Part shown: one piece after another, positions 24,915 through 28,110 of the stretch
Numbering within the stretch: position 1 is the stretch's first letter
Layout of the letters: every line of letters begins with the position of its first letter
Virus record (IMG/VR): IMGVR_UViG_3300049927_000076
Coordinates: 1-45,407 of that record
Source of the DNA: a virus
Length of the DNA stretch: 45,407 nucleotides
Strand: one strand, 5' to 3'
Program-made: the position numbers and the translations under genes
The notes under the pieces: model-generated
Told to the model about the DNA's origin: nothing
The model's input: only the letters and a program-made list of their open reading frames with translations
Database searches by the model: none

Positions 24915-25826
24915 TTAGAAGCCAGTCGTCGCGTTATCGATGATGAAGCCCGACGCCGCGAAGTTCTTATGCTTCAGGGACTGCTCGGAGATGATCATCT
25001 GCTTGGTCGCGTCGCCAGTCTTCGCCAGCGCTTCGCGGGTCCACGGACGCAGAATGGCCTTCGCCCACTGCTTGGGATCGTACACCAGCGTGTTCTTGAC
25101 GCGGATGAAGCGATTGATCTCAACCTTGACCTCACCAAACGGCGAGACGTAGAAGTTGACCACGTTGACGATGCCAGAGGTCTCGCCCACCTTCTCACCG
25201 GGAATGGTGCGATAGCGGCCTGCAGCCTGAGCGAACGAAGCGATGATCACCGAGTTAGACGGGGTGACCTGAACGCGCGTGGGCTCAGCGCCTGCAGTGA
25301 AGCAAGCCTGGAGGTTGGTCAGAAGCAGGGCTTCCGTGATGTTGGTCGCAGCGCCAGCGTAGGAGATGTTGCCAGCCGCAACCATCTGCTGAGCACCAGC
25401 GAACTGACGAGCAGTCGCGGAGTTGCCAGCAACGAGGGTCTGCGCAGTGCCAACCAAAGCGTTCTCAAGGTCACGCTTGACCTGGGAAGCCGACTTCTGC
25501 ATCTGGTACGCCATTTCTTTGGCGCGACCGTACACAGTCACGGTGTCAGCGGTGTCAGAGACGACCACTGCTTCGTTGAGAATTTGCGTCACGTTGTTGC
25601 GCATGACGGTTGGGGTGGCAGTGATGTACGTCGGATCAGCGCCTTCGACCTGAGCGTTGACGGCGACAGCGCGCAGGCTGTCCTCCTGCCACTGGAACAG
25701 TACGTTGTGCACCTTCTCGGTGCCAATGTTCGACTGGAAGGGCGTCTTCGTCGGGGTCAGGTTGACGATGATGTCAGAGATGTTCTCTTTGATACCGACC
25801 TGTTGAAACGTTTGATAAGTTGCGAT
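24915..25826 (-). CDS. major capsid protein, SU10/DUF5309 type, with non-canonical start
   Basis: Family hallmarks are clear: ENISDIIVNLTPTKTPFQS near the N-terminus, then VLFQWQEDSL and VQVTPSN in the body. It builds the icosahedral shell. In frame between the upstream stop (25859) and the GTG at 25712 there is no ATG, GTG or TTG. AAGAG (25839-25835), eight bases before ATC GCA ACT TAT, marks ATC at 25826 as the likely start (303 aa); relatives begin M-A-like at this place. The GTG would lose 38 conserved residues. Alternatives are a CTG at codon 32, or a sequence error changing ATG to ATC. Confidence 0.9.
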   Translation of the reverse strand: MATYQTFQQVGIKENISDIIVNLTPTKTPFQSNIGTEKVHNVLFQWQEDSLRAVAVNAQVEGADPTYITATPTVMRNNVTQILNEAVVVSDTADTVTVYGRAKEMAYQMQKSASQVKRDLENALVGTAQTLVAGNSATARQFAGAQQMVAAGNISYAGAATNITEALLLTNLQACFTAGAEPTRVQVTPSNSVIIASFAQAAGRYRTIPGEKVGETSGIVNVVNFYVSPFGEVKVEINRFIRVKNTLVYDPKQWAKAILRPWTREALAKTGDATKQMIISEQSLKHKNFAASGFIIDNATTGF

Positions 25827-25830
25827 TGTC

Positions 25831-26241
25831 TTAACTCTTAAGGTAGGAAAGGATACTCAGTATCTCTTCCAGTGAAGCATCTGATTTGATGCGATTGGCC
25901 CGGTTGCTGATGAAAGCAACATTGCCTTTGAGGTATCCTAGGGTCGGGTTTTTGCGGTCAAGCGAGGGTGAGTTACTAACGCCGCCGTCTTCTCCCCAAG
26001 ACATCTTTATGCCCAGCACTGGACACACGCTGTCTTCAGGGAAAATTCTGTGAAGAAATGGTACGTCTAAATCGAACGGAACACTGGCTTCTTCAGCGCG
26101 CTTCTTAGCGTTACGTAAGGCTTGGTCTATGCGCCGCCTGAAGACGGTTCTTGGGCTGTCCCACTGTGCATAGCCACGCTTGCACGTGCAGCGGTAGGTG
26201 TAGCCATCCTCACGAACGTCACCGCGTTTATTCTTTTGCAA
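25831..26241 (-). CDS. HNH homing endonuclease (copy a), upstream of capsid
   Basis: 136 residues from a TTG with no good ribosome binding site, nine bases after the scaffold stop and in the same frame. The motif set is CPVLGIKMSWG, then SPSLDRKNPTLGYLKGNVAFIS and NRANRIKSDAS, a phage HNH family. Its last codons (CTTAAGAGTTAA) overlap the ribosome binding site of the capsid gene. It is a paralogue of the copy at 27365-27757. Confidence 0.85.
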   Translation of the reverse strand: MQKNKRGDVREDGYTYRCTCKRGYAQWDSPRTVFRRRIDQALRNAKKRAEEASVPFDLDVPFLHRIFPEDSVCPVLGIKMSWGEDGGVSNSPSLDRKNPTLGYLKGNVAFISNRANRIKSDASLEEILSILSYLKS

Positions 26242-26250
26242 AAAGTACGC

Positions 26251-27354
26251 TTAGTCTTTGTCAGCCATGCCAGCTAAGAACGCGTTGACAGCATCATCCT
26301 CAGACCCAGAGCGCTTCAGGTTCGCGACTGCCTTGTTACGGTCGGTCGTGGATGCTGGAGCCTTGGAAGCCGATGATGACGAAGTTGTCTTCACAATCTT
26401 CTTGGGGGACTTGTTGGTCTTGACAGTAAGGACCTTGGAAGAGCCGCGCTTGAACTGCATGGCCATGTGCAAAATCTTGAATGCAACAGGGTCAACCATA
26501 GCGTTAACTGCGTTAGGTTCAGCGCCGAGCTCACGTGCGAACGAGCGAAGGTCGTCATAGACCTTATCGCTCCAGCCTTCGATGTGAAGCGGGTTAGGCT
26601 TGTCAGCGGTGCTGGGGGTGGAAAGTGTGGAAATGCACACCTTCGCCTGGGCAACCGTTTCAGCCTTCTGCTTGTCAGCGACGGCAGTCATAAGAGACCC
26701 AAGGTCCTTCTCGAAGAATGAAACATCATCCATTGCGGCTTTCGCTTCGTCGCGCAACGCAGAGGCTTCTTCAGCAGAAATGTTCGGGTTCTTGGATACA
26801 GCGAGCCAATCTATGGCGGCGTAGGGAGCAGCTTTGGCTTTGGCCTTCTCAAACATTACGTTGAGGGCAGCCACGTTCTTGGCTACACCTTCATCAGCAA
26901 TGCGTCTTTGGTCCGCGACTTCTTGCGATTTGCGGGTTAAGGAAGCTTCCTGACCGTAGAGACGCTTCAAGTCCTTGACAGTGACTTCGCGCTCTTCGTT
27001 ACCGACCTTGACCTTTACATAAGTGTCTTCGCTGTCAACGAACGACTTCTTTTTGCTCTTGTCTTCTTCGGCATCTTTATCGGTTGCCTCCGTCTCGTCG
27101 CTGTCAGCTTCGTCGTCTAGACTTTCGTCGGACTTCTCTTCCTCAGCGCCTTCGCTTTCGGCGTCATCTTCCTTGGTAGTGTCAGCGGCGCTCTCTTCGG
27201 ATGGCTTTTTCTTTTTGAGATCAGCGTCCTCACCGTCAGTATCTTCGATACCAAAGGATTTCAGAAATGCATCAGTTCCCTCGTCTTCTGAGAGAGCTGC
27301 AGTCGTATTGAAATCATAGTTCGTCGCGACGTCAGATGAACTGGTGGTCGTCAT
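26251..27354 (-). CDS. scaffold protein
   Basis: 367 residues from the ATG at 27354 (AAGGAT twelve bases upstream); a longer frame exists but has no such signal. The first 110 residues are extremely acidic (Asp/Glu/Ser-rich), then helical with high charge (EVTVKDLKRLYGQEASLTRKS), and the C-terminus is basic with Lys/Ser and a final acidic helix. This layout and the place before the capsid gene identify a scaffold that directs shell assembly and is later lost. The HNH gene b lies at its start. Confidence 0.85.
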   Translation of the reverse strand: MTTTSSSDVATNYDFNTTAALSEDEGTDAFLKSFGIEDTDGEDADLKKKKPSEESAADTTKEDDAESEGAEEEKSDESLDDEADSDETEATDKDAEEDKSKKKSFVDSEDTYVKVKVGNEEREVTVKDLKRLYGQEASLTRKSQEVADQRRIADEGVAKNVAALNVMFEKAKAKAAPYAAIDWLAVSKNPNISAEEASALRDEAKAAMDDVSFFEKDLGSLMTAVADKQKAETVAQAKVCISTLSTPSTADKPNPLHIEGWSDKVYDDLRSFARELGAEPNAVNAMVDPVAFKILHMAMQFKRGSSKVLTVKTNKSPKKIVKTTSSSSASKAPASTTDRNKAVANLKRSGSEDDAVNAFLAGMADKD

Positions 27355-27364
27355 GAGTAGTTCG

Positions 27365-27757
27365 TTATCCTTGGAGATATTTTGCCACGGCGAGGACTTC
27401 CTCATTGGTGGCGTTTGATTTTATTCTGTTAGCTTTGGTGCTGATGAACGCCACGTTGCCCAAGACGTATCCCCGCGATGGCATTTTGCGATCTAGAGCT
27501 GGCGTGTCGTCATTAACGCCCCTTCCCCAAACCATCTTTATCTTCAGAGCTGGGCACATCCCGTCTTCTGGGTAAACCTCTAGAAGATGTTCAATGTCTA
27601 AATTGAACGGCATGCTCTTCTCAAGTGAACGGGCTCTAGCCTGACAAAGCGTATGTGATACGCGGGACCTGTGATATGCTTCAGGTGACTGCCAAACTTC
27701 ACGGGTTTTACCGTTTCTGAGTTCGTACTTAAGAAACGTAAAACCGTCGGAACGCAC
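27365..27757 (-). CDS. HNH homing endonuclease (copy b), upstream of scaffold
   Basis: 130 residues with CPALKIKMVWG, TPALDRKMPSRGYVLGNVAFIS and KANRIKSNATNEEV, a paralogue of copy a. The first start is a GTG without spacing to GGGA; a CTG 15 bases earlier is in frame. Its stop (CAAGGATAA) contains the ribosome binding site of the scaffold gene. It separates the genes at 27784 and 27354, which were probably adjacent before insertion. Confidence 0.85.
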   Translation of the reverse strand: MRSDGFTFLKYELRNGKTREVWQSPEAYHRSRVSHTLCQARARSLEKSMPFNLDIEHLLEVYPEDGMCPALKIKMVWGRGVNDDTPALDRKMPSRGYVLGNVAFISTKANRIKSNATNEEVLAVAKYLQG

Positions 27758-27783
27758 TGTCCCTATTTTCAGATAGCGTAGTG

Positions 27784-28110
27784 TCAGTAATCGTTATCCT
27801 CTGCACGCGGAAAACCTTCGTCGTCGTAGAGCGGTTCGACGTAATAGTCCGTGGTGCCTTCTGGTGTTGGGGCTTTTTCGGCTTTGATGTTGGCTGCAGC
27901 AGCCGCGTTGAGCTTCATGAACTCAAGAAGTCCCCGCGCTCCCCAGAGGGTGGCGTAGAGTTGTTCTCGCTTCTTTGTCTCGTGAGGGTGTGTAGCCAGT
28001 ACGTCTGAGGCAATCGTCTGCTCGTATTGAGCGATGATCACCGTGAAGTCAGAGCTGGCCAGAAGAGCTTCGCAAAGCTCTCCCGTAACCAGTATTTCTT
28101 GATCAGTCAG
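27784..28110 (-). CDS. structural-module protein, 108 aa, probable CTG start
   Basis: Not recognised by family. The frame is open from CTG at 28110, with AAGGAC (28123-28118) seven bases upstream and the stop of the previous gene overlapping it (CTGACTGA). The N-terminal part it adds (LTDQEILVTGELCEALLA) is helical and continuous with the rest. A GTG at 28041 is possible but has no ribosome binding site and loses 23 residues. The region HETKKREQLYATLWGARGLLEF is helical; the end is acidic. It lies between the Pro-rich protein and the scaffold. Confidence 0.6.
   Translation of the reverse strand: MTDQEILVTGELCEALLASSDFTVIIAQYEQTIASDVLATHPHETKKREQLYATLWGARGLLEFMKLNAAAAANIKAEKAPTPEGTTDYYVEPLYDDEGFPRAEDNDY

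Follow-up and report, generated by a model that had tools for sequence, protein, structure and literature searches.

We found a major capsid protein gene that has ATC at the codon where its relatives begin with ATG. The gene lies in a viral contig of 45,407 nucleotides (IMG/VR record IMGVR_UViG_3300049927_000076), the whole of which we call the window. Two related alleles from other metagenomes, L024 and L031, have ATA and ACG at the same codon, and all three carry either an HNH endonuclease gene directly upstream or the junction of such a gene. The absence of ATG from the window capsid gene is more than chance, and we consider initiation of the major capsid protein at a near-cognate codon to be the best reading of these alleles, held with moderate confidence. 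A near-cognate start is unexpected in this gene because each virion takes up hundreds of copies of the major capsid protein.

The product of the capsid gene matches SU10_MCP (PF17236) over residues 15-307 with an E-value of 3.5e-74 (250.4 bits against a curated cut-off of 24.1), which bears out the SU10 identity proposed in an earlier note on this DNA. The gene order is of the SU10 type, with the phrog_3927 scaffold gene upstream of the capsid gene and an endonuclease gene, HNH1, alone in between; the longer minus-strand order is the gene at 28738-28103, gene X, a second endonuclease gene (HNH2), scaffold, HNH1 and capsid (Table 1). After the TGA at 25859-25857, the capsid frame reads GTA TCC TTT CCT ACC TTA AGA GTT AAG ACA ATC GCA ACT TAT. 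Reading it codon by codon from this stop to 25712 yielded no ATG, GTG or TTG, just as the earlier note had claimed; the earliest such codon is the GTG at 25712, and the single in-frame CTG ahead of it lies within NLTP, 3' of ENISDII, where the note had placed it. The same note was right that AAGAG stands eight bases before the ATC at 25826-25824, the intervening 8 nt being TTAAGACA, but its spacing of five bases between the HNH gene and ATC proved to be 4 nt, with the HNH1 stop TAA at 25833-25831. Between the in-frame stop and codon 1 the window has 10 codons, L024 has 4 and L031 has 6, and no canonical start is among them, so the capsid start must be non-canonical.

Table 1. Features of the window around the capsid gene.
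Feature	Position	Strand	Start and context
Gene X, flanked by HNH2 and the 28738-28103 gene	27784..28110	-	start CTG 28110, overlaps upstream stop
HNH2, second phrog_3322 endonuclease	27365..27787	-	CTG 27787 (CTGA overlap with the previous gene's stop) or internal GTG 27757
Head scaffolding protein gene, phrog_3927	26251..27354	-	ATG start kept; HNH2 10 nt upstream
HNH1, phrog_3322 / endonuclease VII-like free-standing endonuclease (predicted)	25831..26241	-	TTG start; L024 carries a homolog at this site
In-frame open stretch 5' of ATC	25827..25856	-	without canonical start; contains AAGAG
Near-cognate start codon ATC (putative)	25824..25826	-	position of ATG in 63/65 distinct relatives
Major capsid protein gene, SU10_MCP PF17236, phrog_1328	24915..25826	-	proposed start ATC 25826-25824

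Among the 65 distinct relatives scored, all on viral contigs, 63 have ATG at the codon aligned with the window's ATC, in keeping with the claim that Met is usual at this site in SU10 capsids. The two exceptions are the ATA of L024 and the ACG of L031, both at aligned codon 1; like ATC, each differs from ATG by one base at exactly this position. The nearest relative, L002 (87% identical), has no HNH gene and reads ATG GCA ACG TAT CAA ACG behind a 34-nt leader that follows a TAA. Aligning the window with HNH-free relatives, a check that the earlier note had proposed, places this ATG exactly where the window has ATC. The leader of the L002 type is missing from the window, where HNH1 occupies the space.

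Two pattern scans of the 2.9 million viral contigs in IMG/VR for the capsid N-terminus (motif MAx[YF]QT[YF]Qx[VI]G[VI]KE with a non-ATG first codon) matched only L024 and L031, both with the HNH junction; CTG, GTG and TTG first codons fall outside these patterns, and some records close to the window may be missing. In a neighbouring capsid subfamily, none of the 35 distinct matches to a pattern scan lacked a start. Loss of ATG is associated with an HNH gene or junction at a Fisher P of 2e-5, with the alleles taken as independent and the window counted as the third; L024 and L031 have a junction in common and so may not be fully independent. A survey of all ORFs for missing starts was swamped by shadow ORFs, and a gene-by-gene survey was used instead. 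The phages collection held no near relative of the window by DNA, and the protein relatives found there were below 60% identity. These comparisons confirm that the observation is real and extend it to three alleles.

HNH1 matches the profiles phrog_3322 (7.9e-27) and phrog_1035 endonuclease VII (2.8e-9), with no Pfam match at 0.001, and is a predicted free-standing homing endonuclease of the HNH / endonuclease VII class. L024 has a homolog of HNH1, with about 52% identity, between its scaffold and capsid genes. Occupancy of this site is polymorphic, the gene being present in the window and L024 and absent from L002, L003, L031 and the further relatives in which a short leader was read. L031 nevertheless has its 3' junction in common with L024: its leader ends in TACTTGAATTAATAGGAGGCCTATC and that of L024 in TACTTGAATTAATTAGGTGCTATC, where TAC TTG AAT TAA is the end of the L024 HNH gene. 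No HNH match was found elsewhere in the L031 record. Having the junction of L024 without the gene, L031 would be either a deletion footprint of the HNH gene or a pre-insertion form.

The window allele is represented by one contig, in which a sequencing or assembly error could have replaced a true ATG. We regard this as very unlikely: L024 and L031, which come from metagenomes other than that of the window, have likewise lost ATG at this site, each with its own codon and with a similar junction, and the remainder of the window capsid reading frame is intact. A start further downstream, with a dispensable N-terminal arm, could draw on an ATG at codon 9 in L024 and a GTG at codon 10 in L031, but the window has no such codon before codon 39, past the conserved ENISDII...TPF block. 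Codons 2-10 also change mostly synonymously relative to the nearest ATG relative, with synonymous/nonsynonymous counts of 3/1 for the window and L002, 5/0 for L024 and L022, and 4/1 for L031 and L008. This leaves a downstream start hardly any probability; judging from these substitutions, translation of the start-less alleles must begin at codon 1 or just upstream. L024 and L031 have another ATC one codon upstream of codon 1, but their Shine-Dalgarno spacing is better for codon 1, the upstream ATC being closer than usual, and the codon at the ATG site would be the simplest choice of start.

It is also extremely improbable that translation begins in a separate exon, or that frameshifting or readthrough joins the capsid protein to HNH1. 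A relative, L062, shows that this gene can hold a group I intron, and in the window the frames of HNH1 and the capsid gene share 26 nt; however, L031 lacks the HNH gene and has only about 45 nt from the scaffold stop to the capsid gene, and in L024 the HNH and capsid genes are in the same frame with a TAA between them, with no slippery site common to the alleles. No intron match was found in 25600-26500 even at an E-value of 10, where there were weak snoRNA matches far below the cut-off, in a search that detected the L062 group I intron as positive control. We rejected a frameshift or readthrough fusion because its frame relation differs between the window and L024 and the HNH gene is missing from L031. 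As a common explanation of the three alleles, splicing, sequencing error and HNH-capsid frameshift each fail. The earlier suggestion that the gene starts at ATC, or that its ATG was altered with the HNH insertion, is thus supported, with ATC at the relatives' ATG site and the loss tracking the HNH junction; ATA and ACG widen it past one contig, and we infer the use of ATC from codon conservation.

We think it rather probable that the capsid leader was displaced when a free-standing HNH / endonuclease VII-like gene entered the space between scaffold and capsid, that in this setting the capsid ATG mutated to a near-cognate codon (ATC in the window), and that fMet-tRNA can still use this codon as a start. 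Ribosomes ending HNH1 4 nt upstream would probably help in the window, and such termination-reinitiation coupling is likely. Coupling cannot account for the L031 allele, which has no HNH gene. Shine-Dalgarno energies, calculated for the duplex with the 16S 3' end, average -2.3 kcal/mol in ATG relatives (range -5.1 to -0.6, n=18), compared with -6.0 in L024 (spacing 4), -10.2 in L031 (spacing 5) and -2.4 in the window. The pairing of L024 and L031 exceeds that of every ATG relative, as if making up for a poor codon, and in these alleles it appears to do the work instead of coupling; the AAGAG of the window is weak.

Some considerations weigh against initiation at ATC by this route. Near-cognate starts normally lower expression a great deal, an odd property in the gene for the most abundant virion protein, and the TTG start of HNH1 has no obvious Shine-Dalgarno, so the coupled flux may be low. 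IF3 disfavours non-canonical codons. Reinitiation without a Shine-Dalgarno in E. coli is itself inefficient and IF3-sensitive (PMC2268962), so coupled initiation is not known to work at ATC. The M13 gene V-VII coupled pair is like the window in having a downstream start at the upstream stop codon, but that study needed mutant initiator tRNAs for non-AUG reinitiation (PMC2268962), and natural coupling is not known to accept AUC. Bacterial AUA and AUU starts are used with an extended Shine-Dalgarno at reduced efficiency, up to ~30% of AUG for ccpN (PMC13009471). The AUA/AUU-type starts with strengthened Shine-Dalgarno of infC, cvfC1 and ccpN (PMC13009471) resemble L024 and L031; there, however, the codon limits or regulates expression, whereas the capsid gene encodes a major structural protein, with a weak Shine-Dalgarno in the window.

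Candidate causes of the ATG loss are relaxed constraint, an accident at the junction, and immunity to the endonuclease. If the HNH insertion overwrote the ATG, the present codon would be a leftover of the junction, and selection would have kept something that weakly worked. Replacement of the whole leader relative to L002 fits such an accident, as does the additional ATC one codon upstream in L024 and L031. We nonetheless consider it unlikely, since each of the three codons sits precisely where ATG would be and differs from it by a single base, and an arbitrary codon would be a near-cognate other than ATG in about 9/64 cases.

Immunity, which we likewise regard as doubtful, is a proposal about the cause of the ATG loss and does not conflict with initiation at ATC. 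The HNH target would span the capsid 5' end, so that carriers, present or past, would need an altered target, a change in the ATG being the cheapest one tolerated; near-cognate starts would then be the price of immunity and would travel with the endonuclease through co-conversion. In its favour, one and the same ATG has changed by a single base in three different ways, solely in HNH-junction alleles, but the target site is itself a prediction, and free-standing enzymes often cut far from their own gene (PMC2988022).

Tail-fibre genes bear on the same question. HNH-free genes with the N-terminus SNYTK[ATS]TNF start with ATG in at least 84 cases, TTG in at least 7 and GTG in at least 4 (at least 95 cases), whereas among the matches listed those with an HNH gene or junction directly upstream have TTG in 8/8 and ATG in none (L091, L092, L093, L112, L329, L347, L348, L410). 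This contrast, which favours immunity, gives a Fisher P of 3e-7 among the matches listed if the alleles are independent, which they are not; they comprise two or more HNH lineages and a single HNH-free junction (L348). Against immunity, HNH-free alleles with a similar leader (L314 and others) already have TTG, so TTG may predate the insertion. A rule that every HNH neighbour loses ATG was rejected: on a rough reading of the HNH-neighbour survey most neighbours retain it, as do the scaffold gene after HNH2 and the gene after the L082 HNH. The ATG retained by most neighbours, the scaffold gene included, counts against immunity.

In L062 (4298-5000), a different endonuclease VII-type gene lies directly against the capsid ATG, and a group I intron (RF00028) follows codon 11 of the capsid gene; this looks like a collaborative-homing arrangement. 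F-CphI of cyanophage S-PM2 is described as a free-standing enzyme whose target an intron protects (PMC6083498). The L062 layout matches this one, making the capsid 5' end a plausible target and suggesting by analogy that such endonucleases target it; this favours immunity, although 33 nt separate the ATG from the point of intron insertion. The wider proposition, that homing endonucleases at the starts of essential virion genes drive ATG to near-cognate or weaker starts as self-immunity, seems to us slightly more doubtful; if true, capsid and tail-fibre start codons would be a record of past endonuclease invasions.

The T4 mob genes (PMC2988022) and F-CphI (PMC6083498) resemble HNH1 (phrog_3322, phrog_1035 endonuclease VII) in being small endonuclease ORFs packed between essential genes and in belonging to a related catalytic family. 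The available parts of these accounts do not describe loss of the downstream gene's ATG, and homing by HNH1 is a prediction. A partial literature search, mostly of titles and abstracts, found neither a phage capsid starting at ATC nor an HNH insertion at a capsid start. Gene finders limited to ATG, GTG and TTG would misplace the capsid N-terminus, and repeated ATG loss beside a selfish endonuclease ties mobile-element invasion to start-codon evolution.

Unusual starts also occur elsewhere in the window. Gene X has CTG, where 40 relatives have TTG (22), ATG (15) or GTG (3). HNH2 has no canonical start that would keep its N-terminus and probably begins with the CTG of its CTGA overlap. With CTG at gene X and probably at HNH2, both over upstream stops, start quality looks relaxed where genes overlap. 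The gene at 24465-23818 on the minus strand starts with ATG in about half of its relatives and GTG in about half, in contrast to gene 30774, scaffold and capsid, which have ATG throughout in HNH-free relatives. Capsid genes related to that of the window were found in Bradyrhizobium, Microvirga and Nitrospirillum genomes (L233, L234, L235), indicating an alphaproteobacterial host.
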